From Cladocopium goreaui (lineage: Eukaryota; Sar; Dinophyceae; Suessiales; Symbiodiniaceae): a stretch of DNA of 64,000 nucleotides. The notes below the pieces were generated by a model, which had not been told where the DNA came from, did no database searches, and was given only the letters and a program-made list of their open reading frames with translations. The stretch covers positions 133,312 to 197,311 of the forward strand of contig CAMXCT020000252.1 in the NCBI GenBank assembly GCA_947184155.2, in the 5' to 3' direction. Made by a program: the position numbers and the translations under genes. This document shows, piece after piece, positions 14,661-57,170 of this stretch (within the stretch, counting starts at the first letter, position 1; each line of letters starts with the position of its first letter).

Positions 14661-14697
14661 CCAGTGCACCTGTCACGTCTTTGGACAGACACACTGG
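14661..14697 (-). promoter_or_regulatory. Two-stem leader hairpin, copy 1
   Basis: Outer stem CCAGTG/CACTGG, inner stem CTGTC/GACAG, loop ACGTCTTTG on the + strand. Same element as the 17 copies at 33-57 kb. It lies about 200 bases past the stop of the giant gene, so it would lead a following minus-strand gene, of which only a 43-codon ORF is visible. A spliced-leader-like word lies just upstream in sense, at 14729-14747. Confidence 0.8.
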
Positions 14698-14892
14698 GTA
14701 TGAGCAGTACACTTAAGTAGATGTGACAATTGAACCAATTAGACACGTAAGTCATCTTCCACCACCGTGATCGATGAAACAAAAGCCAACCAAAGGGTGA
14801 AAACCCAGAGTGAAACAGAAAAAGATAAGGGGAGGGGGGAGAGGGGGTGGACACACGAAGGAAAGTGTGATACTGGGGGGTTGAGCTGGGGA

Positions 14893-17800
14893 TCATGTCA
14901 TACCTCTCGTGAAATGTTCCAGATGGTGTTTTTTGTCTGCTGTAATGGTGTCATACCATTCATTGGTGAGCCCAAATGAAACTGGGTTCACTGCTTGCTG
15001 GGCAGTAGCACGCTGATGAAGCGCTCTGAGCGCCCTTCGATGTTCATCCAGATCTTCCGGAGGGACCCTCCGGCGGACTCGCCTGTCTGGGAAGTTTCGT
15101 TCCCGCAGGTTGGTTTGCAAGGCATGTTCCGCTATATAGACTGCTGGTTGCTGGAATAAAACTCGCTCCGCAAATCTGTCGAGATGGACTGTCCACTCAG
15201 CAAACATGTGGCTGTGTGACAGTTGCTTCCTGAGTCGCGCCTCTGTTTGATGAAGGCTCCCATTCATGTGCCACAATAGTAAAAGACTGTAGTTGGAAGG
15301 CCAGTCAAGTGGGCACAGTGTGGCTGTTTCTTTCCATTTTTCAGGGGTAAGCCCTTCTGAAGAGGGAATAATCACTTCAAGAGTAGTACGATTCGATCCA
15401 AGGGGTTGGAGACCTCGCAGCATACATGGTTCAACGAGCCCTGTGGTGTAGCCATTGATGAGCTCCTGGAAGCTTCCAGCCATTTGAAAGTCTTCATCCA
15501 ACCCCAGGTGAAAACCAGGCAAATTTTTAGCAACAAATTTAACTGCTTGGAGCCGCTTGTGTGCTTTGGCCTCCCGGTGCAGGGCCACGCCAAAAAGGCA
15601 AAAACCATGCAGAAGCACGGCCCTCCGCAAGCACCAGGCGCAGCCGGCGGCGCACACCTTTCCACACCGTGTGACCCAGGCCAACCTAAGGTAAGTGGAT
15701 CCACACACCGGGTGGTAAGTAACCGTGACCATTCATTTCCCAAGTGGATCCACTCACCGAGTGACGTGGGAACCACAAAGGTACCCATTCATTTCACCCA
15801 AGATGATCACCACTCAAGGGACGTGGAACACGGACACCCACCACCACACAAGGTGTTCACCACAATCACCGAAGGTGAAACCATCACACGATGCCCCCAT
15901 TGGTTCCCGGACTCCTGCTCGTACAGGAGAAGAACGACCAAAAAAGGAGTGGTCGAACTAAGTCACCTTTTCAGTGACCCCAGTCCCAATGGAGCACAGC
16001 TCGAACCTTGGATTAGGTCCTTACTGTGGCCAGACTGTACATTGAGCCCACTCTCCCCGAAGGTTGAGAGTGGACCGGTCGGTGACCCAGTCGTTAGCGA
16101 TCCCATGCATCCCCGGAGGGATACACCTGTCTCACGACAGGACCCTAACACTGTTAGGGAGGAACCGACGGTCTTGTCCACCGTGAGCTTGGCTACCCAC
16201 GATGAATTTTGACCGTTAGCCAACGGGTTGCCCCATTGACCCCTCCTCGAGACGAGTCACCAAGTCTCTAAGAGGTTCACCGATCGGTCCGGGAGAACCC
16301 CGAGATACCGCACGATCACCCAAGGATGTGCGCAAACACAAACGAGGGTGTGACATGAGGAGCAACCCAACATGTCAACACACGCCGACTAGGGGGTACG
16401 AAGGTACCGTGTCCGTTCACGGTTCGTTAGGGACGGGGGCCTTCAGCAACTCCCCTGCGCTATAGAAAAGTTTAACGTCCCCCCGGACCCTCACGGGTCC
16501 ACCTCCCCCTCTTGCAGCCATGCCTCTTGGCGGGCCGCAACCTCCGCCCGGGCTAGCTGCTTTTCTCCTTCCACGGGAGTCTCGTCATAGGAACGTTTCG
16601 GGCACGTGATGTTGATTTCTTGAGGTTTCTGTGCATTCTCAGGAGCATTCTCGAGGAGTTTGGGAGCAATTTTACTGGCCCAACTAGCCGGAAACCATGC
16701 CAAGAGGGCAGAGGCGCCACTCGTAAGGTCCACTAACCCAGTAGTGCACCGATGCGGTCGATCTGTGACTAGGACTTTCACAGGGCCACTCGGCGCTCGA
16801 CTCCGATTCACTTCAGAGCTCTCGCGGGCTGAGCCAATGAGTTCAGACAGGATGGGCCGAAACCAGTAAGTGGCATACAAAAGGCATTCAGTTTCTGGAG
16901 TCACCATGGATTCAGCCAATCTCATCAACGAGCTCATCGCCTGGGCGAGCTTCTCTGCCAATCGAATTGTGAGAGCCCTAGCTGTTTGATTAAGGACATC
17001 CTCCACCTTGGCACCTTGCCCGCGCAACCACAGTTCACCGGCCACACTCAGCAAGACGCGCGCAAACTTTTCTTGGATGGCAATCAAGGACAACGTCAGT
17101 CTCGCCTGGAGCCATAGCGGCGGGAGAACGCCAAGGTTTTCTGGTATGCAGAAAGGGTTTCCGTCAGGTTGGATATTGTCAATTAACATTGCTAGCTTAT
17201 CAGCTGCGCTCAAGATCTCGTCCTCAGAGGGATCTTCGGCTGCTTCAGGTATGGGTGGACACCATGAGATGGTAGGGTCTTCTGGATCACTTTCTCCATC
17301 GGTAGAGGCTGCTTCTTCATCCGAGGATGGGTCACTCACTGTGTCTCTTGCACCCTCCGGGCTTGCAAGTTTCATAGTGCCTGGATCAAATTGGCGATCT
17401 AGTGTGGCCAACAGCTCAGGTTGCAACCGATGGGCATCAAAGTAATGGATACCAGGGATTACCACAAGTTGTCGATCCTGTATACCAGCATGAAAGAAAA
17501 CCTTGTGACCTCTGTGTCGATGAACGAGGGCCGGGGACCCATTGTAAGCTGCACACAGCCAGAGGGGAGATCTGTAACCATCCGCGGCGTAACCATACAG
17601 GTACTCACGATCAATTGAGCAGGGGAAAAATCCGCTGGTAGTCAGCACATGGTCACGTGTGCGGGACTCTAGCGCTGCGAGGACATTAGGGGGAAGCCGT
17701 AGCCTGTCTCTGCATGCCACTACCAGCCGATATCGTCTCCACGCTCGTGTGCCATTGGTGGTCACTATCATGGCAATAGCAAGGGGCGGTTTATCTTGGG

Positions 17801-20800
17801 GAGTAAAGGGCACCGATAATCCCCAGTCCAGTATGGCACATCTGTCGCTGGGGTAGTGTATAGGGCCATGGTACTGAATGTCACGGGCTTTCAACGTGAA
17901 GTATCCGTCATGGTAAACCCCTATTGTCTGGGCCATTCCAATCATGCCTGCCATGTCAAGAGGCGAGACAATATAGGTATGGTCAATGGCTCTTGTCAGC
18001 GCTACAGTTGCCCTTCCATAGCAGTCCTCGCGCTCGTCTGCTGTTGAATCTCTCCCCCTCCACTAAGAAAGCCTACCCCTGTTTGAACAATGACAGCAAT
18101 GCGAGCTGTCGCTCCTGCAGCAGAGGAGGTGGTGGAGACTCGCAGCCCGCCATACCACTCGGTCTGAAAGCCATGTTGGAGTAGCAGATTATGTACAGCT
18201 GTACGGTTGCATAAGACAAGCAGCTGCGAGGTCGCTCCCTGTTGCAAGTTACGATAATAATTCTTCAGGTAGGTACAGAAGGCAACCACATCCTCAACTG
18301 CAGACCTGAGATCCTTAGGGGCTTTCCACAGTACTGTGCGGAAGCCTCCAATGGCTACAGTGGACTCATGTGGCACGAAATGGCCAATGTAGATATGGTT
18401 GGACTCATGGAGGACTAACTCCGGATATCGAACTGCAACAATGGCTTGGTAGGTCAGCATGGAAACTCGTGAGCTGTTAGGGAGAATGATGCCCCATCGA
18501 TGAGGACCACAGAGTCCAGCTGCTTCAAGGGTCGTGGTGCACGCAGGTACCCCAAACTCCTCTGGTGCTGTGGCAGTTAGCAAGACTGCAAGCACCGCTG
18601 CAATGAGGCTGCTGTGTGCATCCAGCTGGCACGAAATTCGGCAGTGGAACACCCGCCTGAGGGCGACAGGCAGCTCGTAATCTTGCGGAGTGGATGTCCA
18701 TGGGCCACTGTGCGGCTTGTTTGCAAGCCTCAAAAGACTGAAGAGCTCCGACTCCGGATCTTGGCTCGCATCGGGCCACAGCTGAGCTACGAGGGCTGCC
18801 ATTCGTGCTGGTGGAAAATAGTCGCCGGACTTATCAAGTGCTCGAAGCCCCAACGGCCGTTGCAACAGTTTACGTCGATTGACAGCCGCTGCTCGGCCTT
18901 TGGATAGCCCTCCTGGAGTTTGCCTGTGGTCTCCAATGAAGACAGTCAGCATTGGCTGTTGTATGGCAGCAAGAGCTGCAATCTCATGGTAGTTGCCATA
19001 CTGTTGACTTTCGTCCATGAAGGCAAGCCAGGTGCGAGAGATCCAATGGCCAAAAGAGGAGTAGCGCATCGCCATTTCCGCCGTAGCTGAGCCACCTGTT
19101 GCGATGAGTATATTCTTATGTGAGATGATTCTATTACGGTCACTACAACGGACGTCAATTTTGGAGGCGTATGCCTCTCCTTTGCCCTCCTCCATGCGTC
19201 CAATTAGCCTGCCGAAGTTCTTGATTGTGGGGGGCGCAAGATCACTCACTTGATCCGCTAGTGCTTTGGCAGCTACATTCTCTTTAGTGTAGACGATTGC
19301 AACAAAGTCATTCAGTTCGCAGCTTAGGGCAATGAGCAGGACCGCAAGGGACCGCGTTTTGCCAGCACCAAAACCCCTGCAATACATAAGTCAGATCTTC
19401 CAGTCATAATGGCCAGCAAGAGTGCAATTGAGACTGTCAGGACATGTCCATCACCGTGTGCTGCTAGAGGAAGGAGATGTTCACGATAGTAACTGTCATG
19501 GGCCCCATCCAGCGAGATCGCAGCTGGTGTCAAAAATCGGCTCAGAATTCTGACTAACGCATCAGTCAGTTGCGTTTTGCGCTCGCTAGCCATACGGCGA
19601 ACAGGTATATGCGGCTGCACAATGCCCATTGCCAATGGTAGGCGCGACTGGTTAGCTTGTGCAAACACTAAGAGTTCATGGCGGCTGCGTGTGTCTCCCA
19701 GAAAGGCCAACTCTTCCCAGACAACGGCCATGGACGGGTGGTCTTCAATGGGTTTCAGCCAATCCTGTGCAGGATCAAAATAACTCATTGTTCTAAGATG
19801 CAGATCCAAAAGTCGCCCACAAAAGGTCCGAGCAATAGGCAGAGAGACAATAACCAGCTCCAGCATCTTTGGGGCAATGCGCTTGAGCGCTCTTTGAACA
19901 GGGTTTTTGCTAGTTCCGCTCGACATCACCTTCTCATGTACCAATGCTATGACACAACGCTGCTGATTGTCTGGCAACTGGAATATACCCAGTAGGGCTC
20001 TGCCTGCCATCACGTTCGCTTCCAGGTTGCCCAGGTTCCCAGCTTCACAGAGAGCACGCGGCGACAGCGCTGGAACATCGGAAGGTGCACTAAATAGCAG
20101 GAGTGGGGCACCATCAGTATGTAGGTGGATGACATGAAATCCGGCATACGCCTCATATTGATAGGTAACCTGTAACCGTGTTCCAGTCTGTCCTCGCTTC
20201 TTCTGCTGAGCAAGTTCTACACTGACCCAAGGCTGTAGATGTTGGAGCTGCCGTCCCGCATGATACGCGTCTAATTGCGGAAGCACCATGTCCAGGAGGA
20301 AGATGAGGGTGCGCAGGGAAAAGCCTCGCAGAAATTCCGCCAGTAAGTTGCGGACTAGCAATCCTCCCTCATCATGGGACCCTCCCGGTGTGGGAATCAT
20401 CGCAATCAGGGCCGCTTGCAGTTCAGCTTCCGTTTCAGGCTGGCCATCCCGGATATCCCTTCCGTCAATGGGCACTGTGTGCAGTTCAGTGTTCCCTTCA
20501 CCAGCTGCTACTAACAGAGAACTTAGAGTTGTCTTGAGATGTTCAGGAAGGTCAAAGCTAACCCATGAAAGTACACGCAGCAGACCCTCGCAACGTACCC
20601 CATGTGGAATGACTTGAGGGGTAGTGATTTGTAGTCTTTGGACTTCATGAACCCCTTCGTCAAGATCAATGAAGAGCAAGTGGCCATAGGAGTGTTTAGC
20701 ACGTCCACTCCATGTGGGGTGCCCTTCTATCAGGACAATCTGATAGTTGAATTCTGTCAGAGAGTCAGGTTTCCACACACAAAGCCGGTCCTCCAGGCAG

Positions 20801-21814
20801 TGCACCAGTGTGACTGTGCGTTCGCCTGTGGCAAGTCTCATCATCTCTGGTGGTGTCGCAATCGCAGCAACTTTGGTGAGGCCAGGGAACACTGCAAACG
20901 CACTCAGGATCTCATGGACAGCAAGGCCCGTATAGGACCCTGCCGAAAAACCGTGCACGTTGACATCCCTGAAACCGCTTGCTGCCGCTGTGGTGACTAA
21001 CTGTGGAAAGCATGACTTCAGAAATAGATGTTTGCCTTGCGGATGGTAGCAACGAAAGATTTGCATAATTGCTGTTGTCCAGGTCGGGTGTGGTGGCCTG
21101 GCATGGGCTGGCCGGATATTCGCAGCCTCAATTAGGCGAATCGCTCGCGTGAGCAGCAGTTGTTGATCAGCGAACTGTCCAGGGAGAAAATCTCGCCAGG
21201 CTGTCCATCCTTCTGCCGTGGAGAGTAACTGATAGATCACATATTCATGCACAGTTTTGGTGAGGCCCAACTGGGTGATATGTTCTTCCCAGTCATCTGT
21301 CATCGCAAGCGATGGGCCATACACCTTGGTTTGCGCAAGATTTTGCAGAAAAATATCATATTCATGCTCGCCACTAAGTAGGCCACCCCCTAGTCCACTG
21401 CAATGCACTTCAAGGGGTCGGTCTTGCATCGGGGCGTCATCTTGCCAGACTTCAGCGAGGGAAAAGACCCAGGATGCCCACTCTGCAGAGCCTGTGAGGG
21501 CTACGGGCAGCGCATCTGCGGGTTGGCCCCCACTGTAGTGTTGTTTGGACACTTCCCCAATATCTATGGCCTGCTCATTGACGGTGACTTCCCAATTAGT
21601 CATCTCTCTGAAGGGTAGCGGAAGACCAAACGTGAGGGGAGCTGCCTGCTGCAGCGATGTACATGAAGGTTCAGATTGTTCCTTCCGGTGCCACAGTCCA
21701 CACAGCAATGTGAGTTGAGCTTGGGAGAGAGGAACAGGAGGCACTTTAGCATGCAGTCGCAGACCAACCACTGGAAGGAAATTGGGATGCAACCATTGGG
21801 GCTTCCATTCTTGT
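14893..21814 (-). CDS. Giant gene, 3' part: alpha/beta-hydrolase-like, SF1 helicase and C-terminal domains
   Basis: Continuation of the gene starting at 33190; the junction with 31539 is in frame once the retrotransposon is removed. From 21814 a hydrolase-like region carries GFSAGSYTG. The helicase core follows: Walker A GFGAGKTRS (about 19370), Walker B AFMDESQQYG, motif III VFIGDHRQTPGG, and motifs V-VI GVGFL...REDCYGRATVALTRA just before 17990. These are UPF1/SF1-type motifs. A conserved C-terminal domain (GIHYFDAHRL) follows. Frames change at a GGGGTTTT run (about 19368) and at a G run (about 18045); each fits one lost base. An intron at 15571-16502 is removed in frame, joining to a last exon that ends at 14893. 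Copies A (1-1415) and C (57.5-63.3 kb) are paralogs; copy C lacks this intron. Nucleic-acid unwinding is inferred; the target is unknown. Confidence 0.75.
15571..16502 (-). repeat. Introner-like intron, copy 1 (932 bp)
   Basis: In sense, the exon ends GGGGGAG, the intron begins GTGGACCC and ends CACCGGGAG, and the exon resumes GCCAAAGC. The frame runs on without shift (phase 0). The sequence is nearly identical to 37417-38434 except for a missing block of about 105 bp, and similar to 34071-35057. The identity to copy 3 extends 59 bases into the upstream exon and 17 into the downstream exon. The homologous place in the + strand paralog at about 62.2-62.4 kb has no such insertion. ORFs inside it are chance. 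Confidence 0.8.
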
Positions 21815-22201
21815 TTAACTTTCCCTCACTAAGCCACGAAGACAACACCTCCGAGTTACATGGTTAGGAGAGAGGAAAACCAAACAGAAGGGAGTCATCT
21901 AAACCAAAACCAAAAATGAAACTGAAATCACGAATCACTGAAAAATGCACATCAGGAAATTGCCACACGCGCCTCATCTTTTTTCCGCACACGCAAGGGG
22001 AATGTCTCTGGTCCAAGACATCTACACGGATGTCCACATGGCATTGAAATAGGTCGGCATGACCTTTCTCTTCCAAAAACTCCTGGCCACACACATCTGC
22101 CTGAGTGATGGCAGCGACATAAAAGGCCCAGTGTCACATCGCATGTAAGCCTACATCGGCTTCTCACACATCCACGTCACCACCAGAGAAAGCATCATCC
22201 C
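21815..22201 (-). repeat. B2 terminal repeat of the YR retrotransposon
   Basis: 387 bp matching 23316-23702. Its outer edge (21815) is the insertion junction with the giant gene. Confidence 0.9.
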
Positions 22202-22206
22202 AGTGG

Positions 22207-22878
22207 TCAAAACCATTGTAAGGGAGCGCCTGTTTCGCTCTGGAGCTCCATTGGACCTTCAGCAGGCGCAGGGTCAGCCGCGGTTGTGGATGCCGTGGCA
22301 TGATCTGCTGTACTGGCGCCCGTGGCCTCCGGAGGGTCGAGGTCAATGGCTGGTCCTCGGGGAGCATTGGCGATGATGCGATTTTTCAAACGCAACAGCG
22401 TTTCAACGCTGCGAAAAATAAGGAGTGAGTCCTCGAGGACGCTGTTGAAGTCCGAATGGAGCTCCACACTGTAAGAATCGCTGAACCAAGTGTGGAACGT
22501 TGTCAAGGCATTTATGGCATTGTAAATGGACTGCATGTTGGGCGTGAACGCATCCAACAGCAATTCCCCCAACGGCCGAGGAGCGTTGGGTAGCTGCAGG
22601 TGTAGAGGAGTATCGGGTCTCTGCTCTGGCCATAGCGTGCGTTCAAGCAAATACAATGCCTGCGAAAGTTGCGACCATAGCACAAAGAGGCTATTGAGAA
22701 ATTGTGGTCTGCCACATGCCTCAAGAATAAGGCGGCAACCTGTGATCAACTCGTCGAACTGGCGGATACGCAGCTCCTGTAGGGATTGTGCCGCTCGCAT
22801 GTCTGGCATCGCTGGCTCTAAGAAGCACAGGGATATTGAGATGGCGGCGGTGAGCTGCACGATTGAATCTGGGGACAT
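22207..22878 (-). CDS. ORF carried between A2 and B2, unknown function
   Basis: 223 codons from ATG at 22878 to a stop five bases from the B2 edge; the open frame continues upstream into repeat A2. The protein is mostly helical by composition (runs such as SLQELRIRQFDELI and SLFVLWSQLSQALYLLE) with an Ala/Pro/Thr-rich C-terminus. No motif of gag, RT, recombinase or methyltransferase is present, and I do not recognise it. Standard PAT/Ngaro elements have B1-A2-B2 joined, so this is an insert: a captured host gene or an accessory gene. The helical style resembles the small proteins of the 36-44 kb array, but no clear homolog is in the window. Confidence 0.5.
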   Translation of the reverse strand: MSPDSIVQLTAAISISLCFLEPAMPDMRAAQSLQELRIRQFDELITGCRLILEACGRPQFLNSLFVLWSQLSQALYLLERTLWPEQRPDTPLHLQLPNAPRPLGELLLDAFTPNMQSIYNAINALTTFHTWFSDSYSVELHSDFNSVLEDSLLIFRSVETLLRLKNRIIANAPRGPAIDLDPPEATGASTADHATASTTAADPAPAEGPMELQSETGAPLQWF

Positions 22879-22974
22879 TGTCTCCGGATAAATGCCGATC
22901 GAGCTGGTGCCAAAACTGTCACAGGTGAAGTAAAATGGATTTTGCCTGGGTGGGAAAGGTTTACCTGGGTTGGG

Positions 22975-23315
22975 ACAGGCAAACTTGAGATGACAAAACT
23001 TCATCGTGGGTGATTATTCGGCATGAATGTAACCAGTTTTGGAAGGTGAAACATGTCTTAAGTGTCAAGAAACAACACAGCGAACTCAAGAAAAGTCACA
23101 ACAATACAAAGACCAAACCGTGCAGCTACAAAAACTAAACCAAGGAACATGTTTCACCACAGGTGTGAAGGTGGCAAGAGGTTTTGTTTTGACTGCCCTT
23201 CTGTTTATTTACATTTGTTTAAGGTGTGTACTTCGTGGCCCAAATATTTTTTTTTAAAATTATTTTCTTTCCGTTCGGCCAATTTAAGGCGCTATCAATT
23301 TTATTGACAGCAAGC
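22975..23315 (-). repeat. A2 internal repeat
   Basis: 341 bp matching 31198-31538 with very few changes, mostly in a T/A run. Abuts B1 at 23316 exactly. Confidence 0.9.
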
Positions 23316-23702
23316 TTAACTTTCCCTCACTAAGCCACGAAGACAACACCTCCGAGTTACATGGTTAGGAGAGAGGAAAACCAAACAGAAGGGAGTCATC
23401 TAAACCAAAACCAAAAATGAAACTGAAATCACGAATCACTGAAAAATGCACATCAGGAAATTGCCACACGCGCCTCATCTTTTTTCCGCACACGCAAGGG
23501 GAATGTCTCTGGTCCAAGACATCTACACGGATGTCCACATGGCATTGAAATAGGTCGGCATGACCTTTCTCTTCCAAAAACTCCTGGCCACACACATCTG
23601 CCTGAGTGATGGCAGCGACATAAAAGGCCCAGTGTCACATCGCATGTAAGCCTACATCGGCTTCTCACACATCCACGTCACCACCAGAGAAAGCATCATC
23701 CC
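23316..23702 (-). repeat. B1 internal repeat
   Basis: 387 bp matching B2. The last codons and the stop of the polymerase frame (23665) fall inside it, so the element's pol ends in the repeat. Confidence 0.9.
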
Positions 23703-28266: not shown

Positions 28267-28440
28267 AGCGGCAAGTGATGCAAAACAGGCTTTGGAAATA
28301 TATGATTTTTTTTTTTGGTATCATGTGAAACATGGCAAATCCACTGGAAAAGTTGTTTTGCATGAAAAAACACAGAGGCATGTGAAGCATGCAGCATGAA
28401 TTCTTGAACCAACAGGGTGGCGGCTTGCCAATCAATCCAT

Positions 28441-43418: not shown

Positions 43419-43456
43419 GTGAGGGACCCCTGTCACGTCTTTGGACAGAAGTACCC
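43419..43456 (-). promoter_or_regulatory. Two-stem leader hairpin, copy 10
   Basis: Inner CTGTC/GACAG, outer AGGG/CCCT, loop ACGTCTTTG. Confidence 0.85.
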
Positions 43457-43951
43457 TGAGCTATCTTAGAAATGGAAAGCGATAAATACTTCTCAAGGTC
43501 CATTAAATAATTAGGGAGGAGACTACAGCACAAGGATGATTATGGGAGAGAGTAGCCAAGATCCATGTGGTACATGAAAATTTCACAAGCTTGGTCATTT
43601 GCCTCCTAATGCTGCTACTCCATGGGTACTGAAGAAAAGTAAAGTAAATGCATGGAGTCCTCAACGTCAGTACTACTAATCAAGTGCGACGTTGGAGTGT
43701 GACTCATGGACCTATGGAGAGCAAGCTTGAATACGACCAGGAGGCACGCTCAGACGAAAATGAAGGCAGAGAGATACGACAGGACGGAGAGTAAACAGAG
43801 TACCCTTCGAATCTCGCTACCCAGGATCGAAATCAAAAATGAGAGAAGTGGTACACAATTGGCAAGACACCTAGACAGTTGACCAGTCATTTTGCTCACT
43901 GCGCTACTGACTGTTGTATGGCACGAACACATTGTGCAGCAATAAGTCCGC
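43457..43951. other. Intergenic, no gene seen
   Basis: About 500 bases. The 69-codon minus ORF at 43750-43959 has no supporting feature. Confidence 0.45.
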
Positions 43952-44332
43952 TCATTCATCCAACTTTCGCTTCATAGAGCTTTGACTCTGTTGCCTACCG
44001 TGCTTCTCTTGCCGACGATTTGCCTCCCATCGTTGAAAGATTTTTGCTCGATCGATGGCAGTCAAGGATTTCCGGCCAATCTGTTCTTCACAAGCTGCTT
44101 GTTTTGGGACTGCGTGATTCCTTTCCTCGTTTGCCAGGAATAATATAGCTTCATCCAACGCTCCTAATGCCAATCTCAGTTGATTGACAGCTTTCTCCGT
44201 GTCCATGCCGGCTAGGCTTACCTTGTCAGTTGCCTTAGCCAGGCAATTTCGCAGCTGAGTGACATGATGGGATAACGGGTTCACTGAGCATGGCAATGGT
44301 TTCTGTCTAGGTCTCTCGGTCTCCGTGCTCAT
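43952..44332 (-). CDS. 126-aa coiled-coil-like protein
   Basis: ATG at 44332. Central helix (VTQLRNCLAKATDKVSLAG, EKAVNQLRLALGALDEAIL) and a basic C-terminal tail (KIFQRWEANRRQEKHGRQQ...MKRKLDE). The heptad layout is reminiscent of the coiled coil in the 63519 gene (VHRLAQSIAQ...DDATKLLEKA), but the identity is low, so relationship is only a suggestion. No leader hairpin of the common family was found upstream. Function unknown. Confidence 0.5.
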   Translation of the reverse strand: MSTETERPRQKPLPCSVNPLSHHVTQLRNCLAKATDKVSLAGMDTEKAVNQLRLALGALDEAILFLANEERNHAVPKQAACEEQIGRKSLTAIDRAKIFQRWEANRRQEKHGRQQSQSSMKRKLDE

Positions 44333-47600: not shown

Positions 47601-50509
47601 ACAACCGACAGGACTGGTTGCCGAAACAGCCTGAGCCGATGTATAAACTTCTCGGCAGCTTTAGGATTAATTTGTTTAAGGGTAGTAGGATGTGTAGTAA
47701 CTGTCCATAAGTTACGATTAGACAATTGGGCACGCCCCAGTAGCAATAGCCCGAGTGAGGTCGCAACACCTTGGATGCAGTGTGCCCCGAAACCTGACTG
47801 ATCTAACTGCCGGAGCACCCAGCTTGGAAGCGGGCTGTTGATTACCAAAGCTGTTTTGCACCTGCAGCTACATTCCAACGCCAACAATGAGCATATAGGT
47901 GTATAATCAGTTCCGTTGAGGATACCACAGGCTTCTCTGGGGGTCAACCCAATACACTTGTCGGCTCGTGCAAGAATGAGTGTCTTTTGGGAAAGGATAG
48001 CTGATAAGATCGCTGCTCGTGCGGTGGGGTATTGTTTCTGTCGAAGAATAACTTCACTTTCAATTCGCCCAGGCAGGGATTGGACTGAGAAGGGGAGACA
48101 GTCAGAGCTGATAGCTTGCCAACAGGCATGCTGGTCAATTTGAAAACCTGCCGACCAGCAACATTGATAGCATTTATGGACTCTACTTACCCAAGTAATG
48201 TCATGTCCTGGTCCTGCAATCGTATTGTCGTCAATATATCCCTGGACACTCATGACCCGGGGGATACGATTCATATAGTGATATATCGGGTCCATTGCCA
48301 AGCAGAATAGGAAAACTGAGAAAGACCTTCCCATGTCAACTCCCACATGCACCGCCCTAGGCGGCAGAAGTCTGCCTTGAACTTTATGGCGAATGAGCCT
48401 TCCAAATAGAATGTATTTGGCATAATTACATACCCATGTCGGTGCTTTACGCATTCGCAGGATATGTAGAATCCAATAGGGATTAACCCGCTCAAAGGCT
48501 TTTGATAGATCAACTAGTAGCGCGGCCACGGGAGTATTGCTATCCAGTAAAGCTTGTATGGCATGGACAGCGTGCTGTGGTTCTTTAAAGCAATTCATGA
48601 CTACTTGCGAGGGATGCATATATGAGCAAGTTGCTTTCATGACTACAGCAGCTATGGTGCCATCCACAAGCCTATCACAGGTATTGGGCATTCCTAAAGG
48701 CCTAAAGTAGTCAGCAGTCGGACCTACTTTGGCCTTGGGTATCCAAACACCAACTTGTACAGGTGCAGCTCGTAGGCCTGCTAGCATTTTCATCATTAGC
48801 TGATCTAAAACTGGGTAGCTGTCTTCAGGGGAGAGTCTCCATGCAGAGTAGGGGATTCCATCAGGGCCAGGGGCTGAATCTTTGGTGCCAAGGAGTGTGT
48901 GGAGAAAATCCTGTTTCTGGGGGAGTTCAATGCTGGGCCAGGGCGATGCAGTCTGGTACTCCCGCAAAATGGGTTCCCATTCTTGAAGAGAGTCTTGAGG
49001 CTTAGCAAACCAAAAGTTCCGCGTGTCCAACATGGCTTCGTCCAGCATCTGGGAGGTGGTGCACTGTTCACCCTGCTGATTGAGGATCGGCCCATTATAG
49101 ATGACGCCCTTGGGGCAGATGGATCGTAACCGGTTCCAAAAGGTAATGTTATTGCCGATACCTCTGGCTTGTTGATTTACCTGCTCAAGAGCTGGATATT
49201 GCCGAGTCATAGTGATCTGGTCGAGAAAATCAAAAATCTGTTTCAATAGATCACTTCGAATTGTTACTTTTCCTGGATATAGCTCACTAGCCCCGTTAGA
49301 AGTAAATATATGGTAAGTGGCAGTCTGAAGTGCATGATATTGTTTTGCAGGTACGTGTAACACCTCAGCTCGAATTTTAAGGAATTTCCGCAGGAGTTCA
49401 TGCTCGGGAATCCGAGGGTGATTCGACGGAATAGGTTGTTGTCTCCACCAAGACCAAAGGGTGGCCACAAACTCAACTTCATCTGTTTGGGGTAGTCTTT
49501 GGATCCTTCTTATCAGCTCTTGTAGATCATTAGGAACCGTATAGGGGTTAGCCTCGTTCTTTCCTGGGCAAAACACGTCAGTGGGGATGGTTTGATGGAC
49601 TGGGTCTTTCATATCACTTTTTACTCTTGGTCGAACTACAAAGGTCGCAGTGAGTTGGTAATGTCCACTTAGGTGATGTCGCCGGTTGGCTGCTACAATC
49701 ACATCTATTTGGGCTGCAGCGATATAATCAGTAGGACACAATATTCTGTCGAGTGCTGAACTTCCAGTCGGGCTTTCGAAAGTATGGAGTTGTGGATGCG
49801 TGTCGAGAACTTGCGCGTGGACTAATAATTCATTCCAAAGGTCCGGGCAACTGGTATCTACCTGGTTAAAGTCTCCTCCCATATAGAGGGGAAAGTCTAC
49901 TTTACTGGTCTTGACCCAGGCGATGAGATCTTTCAGTTCAGCGACCTTAGTTTGTGGATGTAGATACACTGACAAAAGTCCGATAGTAGAGTATCTGTCT
50001 TGGATTACTGCGAGGACAATGCGACCTGGGATGACAACTTCTGTTCGGTCAAGTTTCCATCCTGGCGGAATTAGGGCTGCCGCACCACCAGACACTCCAC
50101 CTCTTTCTGTTAACAGTCCTTGGGTGTGTGCTACTTGAATGCCTGGTATGTTATGGTGCAAGACCTGATGGGTTTCAGCATGCCATCTGGTTTCTTGTAG
50201 TAAAACCGGGCCTGTCCGTAGAAGTCGTTTAATTAGTCGCATTTTGGCATCGCCTACCCTAGTTGCAAGTGTCCACCCTGATACATTCCACACATGTAAT
50301 CGTTTAAGCCTGAATGGAAGATCTTGCCTGATAGCTTTTCGGTATTCGAGAATGCCTCTTCCTATTTCTTCTACTGCAAGAGAAGGTAATGTTCGAGAGT
50401 CACACATAAGTTGCTGATAGAAATCATCAACACTCTGATGGAAAAGTGCAGCAACATGTTGCAAGGTTAGCTTCCACCATGGTGTTCGGACATGGAGTAT
50501 ATTGGGCAT
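44672..50509 (-). CDS. LINE-type endonuclease, reverse transcriptase and RNase H protein
   Basis: 1,945 uninterrupted codons from ATG 50509. APE-type endonuclease: LQETRW, GGDFNQV (about residue 210), SALDRIL and SGHYQL in place of the usual SDH. RT: SAPGPDGIPYSAW, LLVDLSKAFERV (about 664), GVDMGRSFSVFLF and GYIDDNTI (about 757), so YIDD holds the catalytic aspartates. A zinc-binding-like CALC...CETC lies near 1180. A stretch around 1360-1455 (VCITRETVDTNQIIAVVPLG; CHCRLTALQPIG-like text) has a faint SET-domain look. RNase H starts near 1461 with VQFDGSCHADKGTGGAG and ends with ILADYLAG. The long tail after it is unrecognised. The protein would nick target DNA and copy its own RNA. Intact length suggests a recent copy. 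Confidence 0.85.
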   Translation of the reverse strand: MPNILHVRTPWWKLTLQHVAALFHQSVDDFYQQLMCDSRTLPSLAVEEIGRGILEYRKAIRQDLPFRLKRLHVWNVSGWTLATRVGDAKMRLIKRLLRTGPVLLQETRWHAETHQVLHHNIPGIQVAHTQGLLTERGGVSGGAAALIPPGWKLDRTEVVIPGRIVLAVIQDRYSTIGLLSVYLHPQTKVAELKDLIAWVKTSKVDFPLYMGGDFNQVDTSCPDLWNELLVHAQVLDTHPQLHTFESPTGSSALDRILCPTDYIAAAQIDVIVAANRRHHLSGHYQLTATFVVRPRVKSDMKDPVHQTIPTDVFCPGKNEANPYTVPNDLQELIRRIQRLPQTDEVEFVATLWSWWRQQPIPSNHPRIPEHELLRKFLKIRAEVLHVPAKQYHALQTATYHIFTSNGASELYPGKVTIRSDLLKQIFDFLDQITMTRQYPALEQVNQQARGIGNNITFWNRLRSICPKGVIYNGPILNQQGEQCTTSQMLDEAMLDTRNFWFAKPQDSLQEWEPILREYQTASPWPSIELPQKQDFLHTLLGTKDSAPGPDGIPYSAWRLSPEDSYPVLDQLMMKMLAGLRAAPVQVGVWIPKAKVGPTADYFRPLGMPNTCDRLVDGTIAAVVMKATCSYMHPSQVVMNCFKEPQHAVHAIQALLDSNTPVAALLVDLSKAFERVNPYWILHILRMRKAPTWVCNYAKYILFGRLIRHKVQGRLLPPRAVHVGVDMGRSFSVFLFCLAMDPIYHYMNRIPRVMSVQGYIDDNTIAGPGHDITWVSRVHKCYQCCWSAGFQIDQHACWQAISSDCLPFSVQSLPGRIESEVILRQKQYPTARAAILSAILSQKTLILARADKCIGLTPREACGILNGTDYTPICSLLALECSCRCKTALVINSPLPSWVLRQLDQSGFGAHCIQGVATSLGLLLLGRAQLSNRNLWTVTTHPTTLKQINPKAAEKFIHRLRLFRQPVLSVVSKSIAFNTFAQSVVLYTTSYFGAATEDLQMLRAAATELLLGRSWIRHDLLAFVFRLCKIAPLLDPGVSILVSALGLFLRKGGEVHELYVETPPAVNRQTHEVRILWQAWARVVGEGVLTRAVSGSGTIKQRINAVKKCVLHHMMQLASHYLRNKVLTAGWTGGISWAWLSHACEANKRWIPSITRFTLLRWAVNEDDDEWLARRGQSRQKKCALCANFGRAYPLGGYQIAICETCIVTKQLTAFTTDSLVRLLETSCRELPMQEELAASEDWEKCIACAKGDNTVGHWVRWCVVPISALRSLTGDDSILSLAEGSRKGVKHLAIASRVVHQFRLLLRESGAMKHQVSAPPIPMDTWIHNLVQRVQTELPLDLRMQHVRTQLVSAHCSVDDSLLSCCDKPPLHISCALAPARVCITRETVDTNQIIAVVPLGSEPLQLIQQTIQFGTGISPNVSLSTFQCECGDYHCRLTALQPIGTNEMLSSYLHSDKTTLLVQFDGSCHADKGTGGAGAALLELQREGLTLLKWRAVALPSCPDNIFAEAVSANLATDLLCEEMVHRSYAVDQAYLQGDILPIIKHLAFAGRFRRIDLQPIIQQIRRKQSRFFDHGKWVYRPREANILADYLAGVASRAAQALPAHVSEPTEIVVEAPFQLAMRSGAIVLEERPLGVTILLLTEVPNISMELVNKFMVQTANQQYLKEVEAYLAGTVNLTKPRVVEYTASATDCLGRLYGRGPCAQRLPRKVRLLLFGNTHQEVDMVGAFYEIMRRLLRSSHLPHIVDLRAILTDLLGLVPLNQRFAVVKRHPLIVMNAGAREACAKLERDHHITCPPALYHLSFQIESATQALVNDHLSLRRPQYSDHVRGAAFRTLEWYEEHIMISYYKELTRRCHVTSAIWLHDGLWLPKEISPHLIYEAERAMLHQLQLESCDPPLFSLRELAADAQALIQTLDDVNVAAKPPPSHESNGKETSRVSLSG

Positions 50510-50667: not shown

Positions 50668-53600
50668 TTAATTGACTCCCTCCGTTGGGGCTTCTCCCAG
50701 TGCGAAGAGCAGCCTGCTCCACTCCTCCGTACTTGCAAAAATAAGATATTCTCCCGATGGGTCCAGTGTATGCGATTGTATGAGCTGAGTTCCAATTTGC
50801 CTGGGCATTCGTCGCATGGACGATGACTGCGTATACCACATTGGTGACCATACTACAGGAGTGGCAACTTTGTATGCAACAAAGGACTTAGAGTCTGAAA
50901 GAGCTTGAACTTGGTGATTGTCAACCACATGTATGGCGATCCATTGTGGAATGGCACCACTAACATCTCGTGCTAATACACCTATAATACTTAAGCCTCC
51001 TGTGCCATCCAGACCACCGAGGAGATGGATGACAGTGCTAGCTGTCGAGGCGTTGTGCATAAAACACTGTGGGGCACCAAGTGTGTGCAGGTAACACAAG
51101 GCACAGAAAGGGCACTGTAACGCCGCAAATTCACTAAGATGTATATAGTGTTGCCCGTTATCAATGCGAGCAGTTATCGGGTAGGTCGCAAATGTATGAT
51201 AAGAAACTTGCACCACATCAGCAAAAATCTTTGGCATACTGGCATGAATGAGAAGGTCTTTACTTTGTCGATAGTCAAATGCGACAGTTCCAAAGCGAAA
51301 CGGTTGGTCAGGCTCATGAGAAAGCAACAGGAATAGCAAGCAAGGTCGTTGTACCCCAACATAGATAAGGGTAGGTTGCATTATTTTTGGTGCCCAAATG
51401 ATAAAACCGTAGGGAAATTGGTGCTTTACACTGAGCGTTGCAATCTGGAAAACGACAAATAATTGTTTGATAGCAGTAAGTTGTTCAGCACCAGTATATT
51501 CTTTCAACAGTTCAATATGCTTTGCTTTGATCTCGTGAGCTTCGGAATGAAATCCAAGACCATTTTTAACAGCCAAGTACAGCATGTGCGCTGATAGGGT
51601 AACATTTTCATATGTGTTGGAGGACTCTAGCACCCAATCAATCCGAGTTTGGGTCATAATACTGCTCAACTCTTTATCCCCGAAGGGGGGTTTATCCTCA
51701 CTGTGAGCTCCATGATACTTAGGTGGGTTGGATCCTTGTAGAAAGGCAAAGACTGTCGGCTGGTGTACTGCTGGGGGGCAAACTGATTCGACGTTATCAT
51801 TAAAGGAGTAGTGCCGCCATCTTGCTTCAAAATCCACTTTATCATCTCTGAGTTGAACTCCTCGAGCGGCTGCTTGTTCTAGAACCAACTTCAGCAAGTC
51901 TTGGTATTTGGAATAAACTTCTTGGATGCTAGGCAGATCCTTGTGGTACGGCTGCGCATCATTGTTTCCCTCAACCCACTGTTGTAATTGATCATCGGTG
52001 CCGAGGGCCGCACTGATGAGGGATGGATGAAAANNNNNNNNNNNNNNNNNNNNNNNNNNNNNNNNNNNNNNNNNNNNNNNNNNNNNNNNNNNNNNNNNNN
52101 NNNNNNNNNNNNNNNNNNNNNNNNNNNNNNNNNTTCTTCTTGTTCGACTTGGTTTTAGCATTGTGCTTGCATGAAGGGTGAGAAAGCTGCGAGTTTCGTG
52201 TTCTTTTCTGCTTGCGAGGAGATTTGAGAAAGCCTTTGACAACCTTTAATTGTCTTCTGCGATATTGCGCAACTTCTCCACCTCCTGCTGCTTCAGAAAG
52301 TTGTTTTGTCATTAAAATTGCTTTGGGCGATTTGACTGGCAATATGACCAGCCCACTGATGAGGAGCTTCCCGCTGACGTGCTTGTAGTCCGCAGCTCGT
52401 ATGCCATTGTTATGGTCGTAAATACTTATCATTCCAGGCTGGCTAGTATGCAGGACTATGAGCTGGCTGTCATGGTCAAGCCTAGTGGTGGCTATGAGAC
52501 ACTGGATTTCATACTCCCTTTCTTGGAACATAAATTTGTGCCCGAGTGGGAGTCGTTCTTCCTCAAGCTTCGGATAAGAGCATCCTGGAGGTACTTTGAT
52601 TCGAACAATGATCAAAGGGCCGAATTTACCGCACTTCCACTTGGCTTGGGCAGTGTCTAGACATGAACAAGCTTGACACTCTGTCAATTCGTCAGCATTC
52701 CAGATTGGAGCTAACAAGTCACAAAGTTCATCTATGCCTGTATTAGGCTTGATTGTCGCAGTGAAGGTGTCAATTGGTAGTGTGCTAGACCGTAAACACG
52801 CCTGACATTGCAGCACAAATCTTGAGAAGAGGAAGCTACGAGTACTCTGACTATAAGGTTAGCGCATATAATTGAATATAGTTCATACACAGCGTCATTT
52901 TGGGTAGTGCCGTTGGGGGGAATGGTGCTAAGCGTTGCTAGGGAAAGGCAGGCGTCGAAACATGTAAAGGGAAAGACAGTGGGCACTTGATGAACCCAGC
53001 TCCACCCTACACCTACTGCTGCAAGGGCTGCTTGTCGAACATGTATACTAACATGTGTTGGGATCCAAGGCCCTCTTGATAGGAGGTACAATGCAGTATT
53101 CATGCTAGACATGTGACTACAGTGGATCGCAATGTCTTGGGCTTTGTTAGCTAAGGCAGCAATAACGGTAGCATCAAGGGTCGGGAACCATTTTCGGCTA
53201 GATTCAGCAAAAGGAGAGAGAGAGGCAAACCGAAATTGTTGGGACTGACTTTGAGTCTCACGTTCAAAGGATGGCTGGGTGAGGTCAATTTGCTCAGTAT
53301 GGTCATCTTCCCCAGTGATATCAATGCACACACGCGTTTTGTCGTTAGCCGGGAGAACAGAGCTTCGTTGAAGGGCAGCCTGGATGAGGGGCACAGCATC
53401 TCCTTGATGTGAGGAAGAAGCCTGGGACGGCTTGGTCTTTGTGGGGGTTGCAATGCCAGGGGGGTCTTTACCAACTTCTACGACAACAGCGTCATCAGGC
53501 AACAATGACTGTTCTTCTGGTACAGTAACATTTCCTATAGGGGCCTCAGAGGCAGCATCTGGAGGCTGGGACTGACTTGGAAGTGTATGTACAATGGGGT

Positions 53601-56304
53601 CACTGCTCTCCAGTTTGGCATTGTCAGTTTGTGAGGGAGGGGAGACACCGGGTGGGGAGGAAGGAGTGATAACAGGGTCAGAGAGTTCATTAGACAGTCT
53701 GACTTTACTTGCAATACCACCTTTCACCTCTCCACCAGTGGGTTTGATCTCTTGTAGGCTAGTTTTTCGACTGCTGAGAGCTTCTCTTTCACATGTAGGG
53801 GGTTTCTTGAGAGGGGTGGAGAGAAGTGCAGGTTGGGGAGGTAGCATCTCTTTATCTTCCTCCTCTATTTTGCGTACATCATTTCGGTGATGGTCTTGAT
53901 CAACAACCATATCAGTAATTGGTTGCTCACTGGTGCCAGCTGGGTGACTAGCAGGAAGGTTGGTCCATGGGATGGTTGGGCTGACAGTAGGGGGGTCAGT
54001 GTGTGCATCCCTCGGCGTTAATTGCCCTTCTGGACCTTTACAAGCACGCTGAGCACCTTTGGGTCCACCTTGACTGCTTGACCGCTCTGTATTTGGCTTC
54101 GCAGTGTCATGGACGCTTGCCCCAGCGACTGCATCAGCAAGGGGGGGACTGTTTTGGTAAGGGTTGATCTGTTGGGAAGGCGGTGTTGGCGGGGGGGTGG
54201 TGCCTACCGCGGCGTAAGCCGGAAATTGATATATTTCTTTCTTACTGCCGGGGGGGGTAGACGGGGTCCTAGGCAGTTTGGCACCATGGTCAGTAAGTTT
54301 GTCCTTCGTGACCGGCTGGTTCTGTGTGGAGTTTGAAGAAAGTACCGCAGTAGTTTTCCTATTGGTACCGCTGTTGTCGAAGGTATTAAATTTCCATGCA
54401 GCAATGGCTTCAACTTTAGTATCAGCCGTGATCATGGCACTGAAGTCAAAGTAGGGAGGCACGAGCATGACTAGATAACAAGCTTTGAAGGGATAAATTT
54501 GTAGAGCGTCGACTTTGGTGAGGTATAATGAGCTTTCGAGGCCGTCAACTCGATTGATTTGACATTGCCTTCCTGTCGGTATTTCAAACATTATAATTCT
54601 GGTAAATTTGGAGACTTGCTCAAACCTAAGGACGTTTTGCTTGCAGAAATCTCCTTTCGCACTATTCACTGCTTCAAAATGACTGAAAAGAGTCAAAAAG
54701 ATATCTAGTGTGTCTTTTACAGGTATTGGTTCAAGGAAGAGTATCCATGGGTAGGTCTCTTCAGAATAAGTGTATGACACCTGTTGAGTCGGTAGGTCAA
54801 CTGCTGAGTCCTTAAGGAGCCCAAACCGTCGCTTCTGTGAAGCATTCTGGGTGCTGACAGGGGCGATGACAGTGAGTCTGTTTTTGAAGCTTGGATTACA
54901 CTTTTCACCAATTCTACGCCAATGCTCTCCTTTGGTCTCGTGCCTGGGTGGTTCACCCGGTGCACCAGTTTGTGGCAGTATGTTTCCACAATGCTCTATC
55001 GTGCAAACAATATTGTTTCCTCTTCTGTCCTTGACTGAGAAAGAACATGGGAAGTTCTGCTTAACTTCATGAGGGATCCAAAAAGTGAGCATCGTGATAT
55101 TGACATTGTCTTCATTAACGATGGTTTGAAATTCAAATTTGGAGGCTGAAAAAGCATTAATGAGTGCAGAGCCAAGATCTGAGTCAATGACTGCTACTTC
55201 ATTTTCCAGGAGTGGGATGATGCTACTTTTTGCAATTTGAAGTGGTATAAAGGGCATACTGCCTATTGGTGCATATCTTACTTCAATTCGGTACCAGTTG
55301 CTGCCAATGGCAGTCACTTGACTAAGAACAAATTGTGTCGATTGCTGTCGTTGTCCAAAGGGCAAGTACGTTGTTGAACAATGCAATAAATTGCGGAGCA
55401 CTTCGATTTCTATGCCTTCTAGTTTCAGCATTACTTGAGCTTTAGACAGGAAAAAGTACTTTATTCTAAAGGACATAAGCTCCAGCGCAAGAGCATTTCG
55501 TTCTTGATCACTTAAGTGCCGAGTGGACATAACAGTGAAGGCAGCAGCCTCCCGCAGTTTATGTAAGCGAGTCCAGTCAATGCCTTCTTTGATTTGGAAC
55601 TGGGTATCTTGTGCTGTGTTAATTTCTTTCTGTAGTGATTCAATTGCTTCACGGATTTTGGTTCTTTGTAAGCATGAGTTCTTTTCATATTTAATAGTAA
55701 GCGGAACGCTTCTTTTTGACTTGTCAGAATTATAGCAGCCATTTGGTGATGTACTGGTCTCACTGACCCCTGGATATTGCCCTTGCCGTAGTTGTTTGCC
55801 AACAAAATTTTCAAAGGCAATACGAGCAGGCATTATCAGCTCATCAGTAATCGTGTCAGAGATTTGCCATTCGATTACCAACGGACTGCTTGACAGGCTA
55901 TCCATTTTGACTAGATATAGTACAGTAGGATATTTTTGATATCTGAGGGTTCCAGTGAGTTGCTTAATTTCTCGGATGGCTGCAATATGCCTATGGCAAG
56001 TGTCAAAAACTTTAGCTGCTATTTCAACTGGGCCAGTGTTGGCATGACACTCATAGATAAAAATGACAGTCTGTTGCATCGTCGCCAGTGTTCTCATAGC
56101 ACTTTGCGCAGCTCCAAAAGCGGGAAAAGCGTAAGCAGTCGTCTCCTGCTTCGCTGTCTGTGAATGCAGCTGATCATAGGTGGTCAGAAGTATGCCTTCA
56201 GGTGCTTTGATTTTGCTAGGAAAATGCACCATGAGAGTGGCATTCAATCCAAGTGCACCGAGACCTTCTGCAGCAGCCTGTTGTGCCTCGATGTGCTCCG
56301 ACAT
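50668..56304 (-). CDS. USP (ubiquitin hydrolase)-like protein with degenerate Cys box; contains assembly gap
   Basis: ATG at 56304, 81 bases after the nearest leader hairpin. The first 1,000 residues are partly low-complexity (Pro/Thr/Ser-rich about 690-1040). Near residue 1063 AIHCSHMSSMNTALYLL resembles the Cys box of ubiquitin-specific proteases (form TCYMNSALQxL), but the catalytic Cys position is Ser. After a one-base frame change near 52830 comes a CxxC...CxxC zinc-binding fold (CQACLRSS, CQACSCLD), ILVRIKVPPG and YEIQCLIATTR, as in the C-terminal half of a USP. A 100-N gap at 52034-52133 hides an unknown length; the tail (to 50668) continues beyond it. Likely a non-catalytic or diverged protease fold; ubiquitin binding is inferred only. 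Confidence 0.5.
52034..52133. other. Assembly gap (100 N)
   Basis: Exactly one hundred N, the usual placeholder for a gap of unknown size. Translations across it are not meaningful. Confidence 0.98.
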
Positions 56305-56384
56305 TCTGGCTTTGTCTTCTTATTACTAGGAAAAGGGGGTGTGTGTGAGAGGTATGACAAGTTACTCGAGATAAGATTGGGGAG

Positions 56385-57170
56385 GGGGGGGAGTACCTGC
56401 CACGTCTTTGGACAGATAAACCCGTAGAGCAGGGAGAGAGAGCTTAACAAAGGAAAGAGGGAGAAGAGGGGGTGGAGTAGGTAGCAGAGCACCTGTCACG
56501 TCTTTGGACAGATGCACTGTGTAACCAGAAAAGAGCAGTCTCTCCAATTGGTTCACGTAAGACGTAACAAAGTAAATCGAGGCTCAGACAAACAAAACAA
56601 GGGGGGGGAGGAAAAGGTGTCCTAAAAAAAGGGGGGGTTGGGTGGGGTAGGGAACAGAGACCTGTCACGTCTTTGGACAGATACACTGTGTAACCTGAAG
56701 AGAGCAGCGGGGAAAAGAAGGGGTCTTGTAAAAGACCAATATAAGAAACAGAGCACCTGTCACGTCTTTGGACAGACACACTGTGCAAACAAAAGAAGGC
56801 AGCTGTTATCAGAGGGGTCGTGAAAGAAACAGATGAAAAACAGAGTACCTGCCACGTCTTTGGACAGACACACTGTGAAAAGGTTATGTGGAGGTAATGA
56901 GAAGAAGTCCTGAAAGGTAAAAGGGACAAGAAGAATCACTGTAATAGAAGCAAAAAGAGGACCTTAGTAGAGCGATGCAGAAAGAAGAACAGTGACCTGT
57001 CACGTCTTTGGACAGACACACTGTGTGAGCGCAAAAATTCCTTAGTAAATAAGAAGAAGTGAGCCTGTCACGTCTTAGGACAGACACCCTGTGTAGACGC
57101 AAGCAACCGAAAAGGGGTGAGCGAAGGTTGCGCGGGGTGCCTGTCACGTCTTTGGACAGACACCCAGGCA
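56385..57170 (-). promoter_or_regulatory. Cluster of eight two-stem leader hairpins (copies 11-18)
   Basis: Inner stems start at 56397, 56493, 56662, 56757, 56849, 56997, 57065 and 57141. Most are CTGTC/GACAG with outer ACAG/CTGT; 57141 has outer GGGTG/CACCC and 56989 has ACAGTG/CACTGT. Two copies (56397, 56849) have CTGCC against GACAG, one mismatch each. Loops are ACGTCTTTG except ACGTCTTAG at 57065. Spacing is irregular (68-169 bases), and flanks such as AACAGAG and ACACACTGTG recur, so the cluster grew by local duplication. All precede the ATG at 56304. Confidence 0.9.

Follow-up and report, generated by a model that had tools for sequence, protein, structure and literature searches.

A repeated, covarying RNA hairpin in the leaders of a ∼34-kb LINE-like retrotransposon of the dinoflagellate Cladocopium goreaui

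SymbioLINE-Dnmt is a long interspersed nuclear element (LINE) of Symbiodinium in which an upstream open reading frame (ORF) contains a DNA methyltransferase (DNMT), a downstream ORF contains an endonuclease, a reverse transcriptase, and an RNase H, and the 5' and 3' untranslated regions (UTRs) are conserved (de Mendoza et al. 2018, PMC5890265). The relevant sections of that paper describe it with two ORFs, with target-site duplications, and without a poly-A tail. Here, we analyze a 64,000-nt stretch of Cladocopium goreaui DNA (assembly GCA_947184155.2, contig CAMXCT020000252.1, positions 133,312 to 197,311 of the forward strand; hereafter, the window), in which a short hairpin recurs within a LINE-like retrotransposon of ∼34 kb. 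As in the published description of SymbioLINE-Dnmt (PMC5890265), the reverse transcriptase ORF lies downstream of another ORF; unlike in that description, ∼20 kb and eight ORFs follow ORF2, the terminus is a run of ∼9 to 11 As, and no duplication was seen. The word hairpin is absent from the main text of PMC5890265. Since the absence of poly-A is not shared and the other features do not decide the matter, the element resembles SymbioLINE-Dnmt and membership is not claimed.

Two further systems are relevant for comparison. The dinoflagellate spliced leader (DinoSL) reads DCCGUAGCCAUUUUGGCUCAAG (PMC6050394), and, as in the retrogenes treated in passages of PMC6050394 and PMC12014239, our element has a spliced leader (SL) relic at the 5' end of a retroposed mRNA, with a second relic-like stretch, TTTTTGGTTCAAG. 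Unlike in those accounts of retrogenes, what was retroposed here is the mRNA of a retrotransposon that has several genes and encodes its own reverse transcriptase. In trypanosomatids, which also use an SL, the 5' RNA of LINEs (Pr77/L1Tc) is likewise conserved and in part structured; however, Pr77 is one 77-nt promoter and hepatitis delta virus-like ribozyme region at the 5' end (PMC4035085, PMC4748587), whereas our element has many short hairpins, also at internal cistrons, with no Rfam ribozyme match. Neither such a hairpin nor a multi-gene LINE of this size was found in the titles, selected sections, and passages covered by our literature search. The hairpin also recalls internal ribosome entry sites, as well as hairpins with a bulged C of which the iron-responsive element is an example, in its leader position, bulged C, 5-bp stem, and constant loop. 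Its loop sequence, its second stem, and the genomic setting are different, and it has no Rfam match.

A search for CTGNC-ACGTCTTTG-GNCAG with up to three mismatches gave 16 sites in the 64-kb window compared to 0.29 expected (at least 16 in 0 of 100 shuffles), and a shortened-loop copy at 33627 raises the total to 17. A covariance model trained on 21 sequences, part of them window copies, returned 18 matches at E < 0.1 (5.8e-13 to 0.058), all 18 on the minus strand; the three best matches beyond these score E 3.5 to 4.8. The 18th copy, at 36374-36419, was revealed by the structure model and not by the core pattern, and its counterpart in a second copy of the element, C150, scores far better (L127:2038-2083, E 6.7e-9). 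A preliminary description of the window, made from its letters alone, had reported 18 copies with a plus-strand core CTGNC/GNCAG, all sense copies being on the minus strand, and each of these points is upheld. The same description had recognized no known family and had proposed a covariance model and an Rfam search as checks; Rfam gave 0 matches at the gathering score across the window and chance-level matches only at a relaxed threshold in two stretches. A known ribozyme was rejected, there being no Rfam match.

Across the genome (1.17 Gb, 6,202 contigs), the exact hairpin pattern has 2,395 matches compared to 0 for a reversed control. Sampled loci comprise the window and 39 fetched loci, drawn from the first 100 of the 2,395 matches and retrieved with the exact stem pattern, in which the variable base was left free. 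In these, a near-exact loop with a full inner stem occurs at 117 sites, and all 117 fall in position classes of the giant element, a site being assigned if its identity to one of the 17 C150 classes was 60% or more (0 of the 117 full-stem sites were lost by this threshold). The dinoflagellate setting supposed earlier is supported. Five single matches in viral contigs and at least 119 single loose-pattern matches in bacterial and archaeal genomes are about what chance would give by a rough estimate, and a prokaryotic or viral origin was rejected; a search for viral relatives of ORF1 or ORF2 found none. The end of a miniature inverted-repeat transposable element (MITE) or DNA transposon, an alternative named in the preliminary description, was also discarded: the hairpins recur at set places inside a single larger element and do not bound a mobile unit with terminal inverted repeats.

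The hairpin that recurs here is a genuine RNA structure of the sense strand, with covarying stems. The best-formed copies combine a lower stem, a bulged base that is usually a C, and a 5-bp stem of free sequence with a small internal loop, the CYGNC/GNCRG stem, and the near-constant loop CAAAGACGU. Folding of eight copies placed one C-G pair at the closure of a 9-nt loop, with a bulged base adjacent, in 8/8, and a single bulged C beneath the outer stem in 5/8. The internal loop, described earlier as roughly 4x4, resolves into a 2x2 loop with two extra inner pairs in five of the eight, and two (39245 and 14670) have an uninterrupted stem. The outer stem, said to covary freely, does so in nine dispersed copies, whose own flanks form a mean of 4.78 Watson-Crick pairs compared to 2.06 with the 3' flank of another copy (permutation p 5e-5, the lowest value the test can give), but pairing is not significant in the eight-copy tandem array at 56397-57159 (p 0.29). 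The array copies share flanks as tandem duplicates and are therefore not independent evidence.

Covariation was quantified in two alignments. The first, a gapless alignment of 21 distinct sequences selected on loop and position class ahead of any modeling, covers 5 of the 17 position classes and omits the array, o4, o8, and 3' UTR classes, which differ in inner spacing; standard pairs occupy 95.2% of its cells vs 73.7% after shuffling, with 75 vs 23.4 double-change cells. The second, 54 distinct model matches and hence fitted to the model, has 92.8% of cells paired vs 69.1%, with 188 vs 55.8 double-change cells, and a covariation score of 0.579 vs 0.174 for shuffled rows. Slid controls score at most 0.126 for the 54 rows and at most 0.168 for the 21 rows. 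The count of further pair types was not above shuffles, being reached by 422/500 (21 rows) and 90/500 (54 rows). Kinship of the copies inflates the covariation counts; the low slid controls and the unrelated stem sequences between cistrons argue that it is not their main cause. At 110 exact-loop sites, the variable inner pair is a sense G-U in 20 and an A-C in 0; a hand count of the first 100 listed genome matches gave 19 sense G-U pairs, and the pattern with the mirror case (plus two mismatches) has three matches genome-wide. Wobble pairs are thus nearly confined to the sense orientation, which shows that it is the sense RNA that folds. The covariation against shuffles and the sense-biased G-U pairs bear out the earlier proposal of a selected RNA structure in leaders.

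As far as sampled, the hairpins belong to one LINE-like retrotransposon of ∼34 kb and not to host gene leaders. The "unrelated genes" of the preliminary description are cistrons of this single element, which runs from 57511 to 12281 on the minus strand of the window and, if this reading holds, is several times larger than the non-LTR retrotransposons usually described (LTR, long terminal repeat). Its termini are as follows.

57493..57511, minus strand: 5' terminus of the element, DinoSL relic CCGTAGCCTTTGGCTCAAG; same terminus at C150 and C80
12281..12290, minus strand: poly(A) run closing the element at its 3' end, ten As

The C150 copy, free of the inserts found in the window, measures 34,071 nt. 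Window 57505-12280 aligns co-linearly with C150:88593-54531, at 72-91% identity per block, and window 12281-52032 with a further copy, C97 (92-99% per block). Two kinds of block occur in the window and in neither of these copies: one DIRS element (21815-31538) and, at three places, a ∼1-kb repeat (roughly 15554-16558, 34053-35102, and 37400-38488). First-look candidates number at least 1,231 for the 3' end and at least 139 for the 5' end, both being filter-limited lower bounds. From the 139, 40 were scored and 30 aligned from query base 1; the relic was present in 20 of 20 fetched from these 30, with unrelated upstream flanks except in one pair (L174/L175) that shares its flank. Because the sample was aligned from base 1, presence of the relic was partly selected for; loss of similarity beyond the terminus was not. 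The other 10 of the 40 scored start at query bases 3 to 24, and the one inspected (C1109) has a diverged relic. At the 3' end, A-runs of ∼9 to 11 were found at 10/10 ends examined (6/6 and 4/4), one interrupted and one followed by T; the query itself includes the A-run. Two copies are truncated, C97 starting at window 14903 and C65 at window 20469. A fixed 3' end with 5' truncation is what target-primed reverse transcription gives and is a feature shared with LINEs (non-LTR). Ends on other contigs, paired by contig, strand, and distance alone and compared only as ends, are spaced by 33.6 kb (C458), 35.0 kb (C1109), 42.2 kb (C4691), and 42.9 kb (C890). By-eye inspection of these four and C150 revealed no target-site duplications, which counts against this picture. 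If the picture holds, the element is also a well-defined example of a trans-spliced element RNA having been retrotransposed. Directly after the SL relic, at 57480-57492, TTTTTGGTTCAAG forms a second, older relic-like stretch, which suggests repeated rounds of trans-splicing and retroposition. A junction, TGTGAGGTCGTCAAA, is common to two insertions, L185 (C1109 5' flank) and L188 (C4691 3' flank), and could reflect a target preference.

The element consists of ten cistrons, given here in order of transcription with between-copy ratios of nonsynonymous to synonymous substitution (dN/dS).

52732..56304, minus strand: first part of ORF1, continuing past an N gap to ∼50668; homologues P0001-P0032; dN/dS 0.08-0.14
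44672..50509, minus strand: ORF2, reverse transcriptase; RVT_1 1.1e-9 (window) and 3.2e-10 (C150); dN/dS 0.08-0.10
43952..44332, minus strand: o3, 126 aa, without a preceding hairpin; dN/dS 0.21-0.52
42911..43294, minus strand: o4, 127 aa; dN/dS 0.06-0.14; three stops in the C35 copy
41634..42443, minus strand: o5, 269 aa, a highly repeated family; 47 homologues; dN/dS 0.04 over 242 aa
40143..40889, minus strand: o6, 248 aa; dN/dS 0.14-0.15
39505..39900, minus strand: o7, 131 aa, without a preceding hairpin; dN/dS 0.12-0.28
38349..38933, minus strand: o8, shortened by a 1-kb insertion (37400-38488), 385 aa in C150; dN/dS 0.07-0.08
35235..36353, minus strand: o9, ankyrin-repeat protein; Pfam Ank_2 4.3e-8; dN/dS 0.21-0.30
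14893..33190, minus strand: o10, helicase-like, 2524 aa in C150; 90 N-terminal homologues; dN/dS 0.09-0.12; supported by co-linearity

The ratios, 0.04-0.30 with one o3 comparison at 0.52, point to purifying selection; window and C97 are near relatives, and their comparisons are not independent. A candidate eleventh gene after the helicase (C150 31433-31816) was rejected at dN/dS 1.03. In C150, the products measure 2267 aa (ORF1), 2024 (ORF2), 126 (o3), 127 (o4), 248 (o6), 131 (o7), 385 (o8), 372 (o9), and 2524 (o10); 242 aa of o5 are readable there, with a broken start frame. Domains above the cut-off are RVT_1 and ankyrin; AAA_19 in o10 (4.9e-4) and RVT_3, a weak RNase H match in ORF2 (0.0017 in C150), fall below it, and endonuclease motifs in ORF2 come from a by-eye reading of the translation only. 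The DNMT-like part of ORF1 falls at a gap of 100 Ns (52034-52133), which replaces ∼1.27 kb lying between the flanking matches in C150 and leaves residues 1233-1656 of P0001 unmatched. By eye, this ORF1 homologue contains the DNMT motifs FDGVG, PCQ, EN, and QRKR. Pfam DNA_methylase reached E 0.1 in one of three ORF1 proteins, the C150 ORF1 part gave no Pfam match for a DNMT, and a PDB search was without a match. In the window, o10 is split by the DIRS insertion and by the 1-kb repeat at 15554-16558.

Hairpins precede 7 of the 10 cistrons in both C150 and the window: ORF1 (eight), o4, o5, o6, o8, and o9 (one each), and o10 (four). They are most numerous before ORF1 and the helicase, which are the two largest products having their own leader.

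56389..57172, minus strand: eight-hairpin array in the ORF1 5' UTR; cores 56397, 56493, 56662, 56757, 56849, 56997, 57065, and 57141; C150 also has eight
43417..43462, minus strand: hairpin before o4; covariance model E 1.9e-4
42464..42510, minus strand: hairpin before o5 (CCGAC/GTCGG); E 9.9e-13; folding z -4.4
40990..41036, minus strand: hairpin before o6 (CCGAC/GTCGG); E 5.8e-13
39233..39278, minus strand: hairpin before o8; E 9.2e-5
36374..36419, minus strand: the 18th hairpin (GAGGC/GCCTC), before o9; E 1.9e-4; counterpart in C150
33252..33744, minus strand: four-hairpin helicase leader (33698-33744, 33613-33658, 33443-33489, and 33252-33298, by covariance model); C150 also has four
14656..14702, minus strand: hairpin in the 3' UTR, ∼205 nt past the o10 stop; E 5.1e-6; C150 has two

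From the nearest copy in the leaders measured, the core lies 34-311 nt before the start codon in the window. The 20-220 bases of the preliminary description hold roughly; the copy at 14670 departs from it, following the helicase stop at 14893. The conserved start of o9 is just after its hairpin, and a longer ORF to 36443 takes in the hairpin by accident. Among 169 retrieved homologous proteins (32, 90, and 47), eight are extended at the N terminus by residues that look like hairpin translations, some copies being read by eye; most other gene models end short of the hairpin region upstream. The extension of P0004 holds two hairpins, the second ∼89 nt before the ORF1 start by hand count (92 at the window equivalent), and those of P0013 and P0022 hold a variant-loop hairpin ∼80 and ∼82 nt before it, also by hand count. 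Others occur in the o5 family (P0124, P0144) and the helicase family (P0054, P0110, and P0037, the last with four, matching the window). Judging from the codons, the variant loop of P0013 and P0022 seems to be CAUAGACGU in place of CAAAGACGU, in other subfamilies. A peptide match at residue 779 of P0039 was discarded as chance.

The leaders were also examined for ATG triplets. The ORF1 5' UTR has 0 ATG in 1,267 nt (C150) and in 1,186 nt (window), compared to 10 and 7 on the other strand. Against dinucleotide shuffles, depletion in the window is significant for the ORF1 (P 0.006) and helicase (P 0.0245) leaders. With o9 excluded, the C150 segments from hairpin to start hold 0 ATG vs 13.5 expected, and those from the previous stop to the hairpin 33 vs 40.2; the window values are 4 vs 12.6 and 42 vs 40.4. 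Taken separately, o9 has 0 ATG in 61 nt from hairpin to start and 16 in the 619 nt upstream. In 23 leaders from 13 further sequences (of 14; C65 gave none, and leaders under 40 nt or unlocated were skipped), there are 5 ATG vs 55.4 expected, and 51 vs 72.3 in the 230 nt upstream. Such counts suggest that ribosomes would scan the multi-hairpin leaders.

The ORF1 array sits within an RNA that was SL-bearing, polyadenylated, and retrotransposed. Since the SL was joined upstream of the array in that RNA, the array is kept in the mature RNA and is not an outron. Our current, tentative hypothesis, plausible though short of probable, is that the hairpin serves a giant LINE-like retrotransposon with many cistrons as a leader RNA element and promotes translation initiation. 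A host or element factor would read the constant loop, the outer stems would merely present it, and the bound leader would aid ribosome recruitment, so that the cistrons of the ∼34-kb RNA, or of shorter RNAs derived from it, could be translated. From the sequence evidence, a translation-related role is most likely, and ribosome entry at the hairpin itself would go beyond what we claim. Whether a ten-cistron LINE makes one SL-bearing RNA of ∼34 kb whose cistrons are translated one after another by way of a reusable internal-entry hairpin of ∼50 nt, and is thus a polycistronic mobile element of a eukaryotic nucleus that brings along a module for loading ribosomes, is doubtful, if conceivable. 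If true, dinoflagellates would harbor an outsized non-LTR retrotransposon in which selection keeps accessory genes for ankyrin, helicase-like, and unknown proteins and a small RNA module recurs ahead of genes, and multi-gene expression from one eukaryotic RNA would be directly testable with a ∼50-nt part. From the list of roles offered by the preliminary description, translation control is thus the one we favor, protein binding and processing stand as rivals, and self-cleavage is without support.

Several observations weigh against a role in initiation. Three cistrons lack their own hairpin: ORF2, which begins 16 nt past ORF1, o3, and o7. One hairpin (window) or two (C150) lie in the 3' UTR, ∼200 nt past the o10 stop, and the distance from core to start is variable (29-225 nt in C150). 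The ATG signal is strong only in the ORF1 and helicase leaders. Depletion is not significant in the four small-cistron leaders of the window (no P below 0.29); for small-cistron leaders it is weak in the 13 further sequences (4 ATG vs 9.6) and absent in the window (4 vs 5.3). The 230 nt ahead of the first helicase hairpin are ATG-poor as well (1 vs 24.7), and depletion there therefore does not begin at the hairpin. Finally, related copies are not independent.

The hairpin could instead be the site for an element-encoded RNA-binding protein, such as the ORF1 product, acting in ribonucleoprotein assembly, RNA choice, or target-primed reverse transcription, with the intergenic placement reflecting exclusion from coding sequence. 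A constant loop on free stems is typical of such sites, and many copies along a single RNA, the 3' UTR copies, and the confinement of the hairpin to this element in the sampled loci all fit. This explanation, though a serious rival, appears rather unlikely. The copies are placed ahead of start codons, hairpins are missing from the 237 nt of non-coding sequence before o3, from the 241 nt before o7, and from the final ∼2.4 kb of 3' UTR, and binding alone leaves the ATG-poor leaders unexplained. Also a serious rival, though less probable still, is that the hairpin sets the 5' ends of shorter RNAs, by SL acceptor choice, cleavage, or internal transcription start, to give a capped mRNA per cistron. 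An SL is added to dinoflagellate mRNAs, according to passages of PMC6050394, pyrimidine-rich tracts and YAG sites lie downstream of several hairpins, and the helicase leader is ATG-poor ahead of its hairpins too, as if a separate mRNA started there. Nevertheless, the retention of the entire ORF1 array downstream of the SL speaks against it, as do the 40 sequences searched for SL relics: true relics were present at four element 5' ends, and other weak matches never fell within 400 nt before a hairpin. A DNA-level element, either a promoter box or a cruciform, is highly improbable; the tandem array upstream of ORF1 resembles some LINE promoters, yet the wobble pairs are strand-asymmetric and the stems covary with unrelated sequences.

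Other mobile sequences interrupt or adjoin the element in the window.

21815..31538, minus strand: DIRS-type retrotransposon within o10, not part of the giant element; split repeats 21815-22201/23316-23702 (100% identical) and 22975-23315/31198-31538 (98.8%)

This insertion is absent at the same place in C150 and C97, and its repeat identity of 98.8-100% suggests that it is recent. By eye, it contains tyrosine-recombinase-like and reverse transcriptase-like ORFs. The ∼1-kb repeat that occurs three times in the giant element is unclassified, with two copies 99% identical, and is also present in C97 (its own copy, at a different place) and in C128. A Copia-type LTR element (2543-12280; LTRs 2543-3034 and 11790-12280, 99% identical) adjoins the poly(A) end, and a MITE-like unit with 66-nt inverted ends (57513-58026; 79%) adjoins the 5' end, pieces of it also being found in C97 and C128. 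Older relatives of the helicase region lie on the plus strand at 1-1500 (66% DNA identity) and at 58130-63115, and the flanks of the C150 copy match the window at 61842 and 61849.

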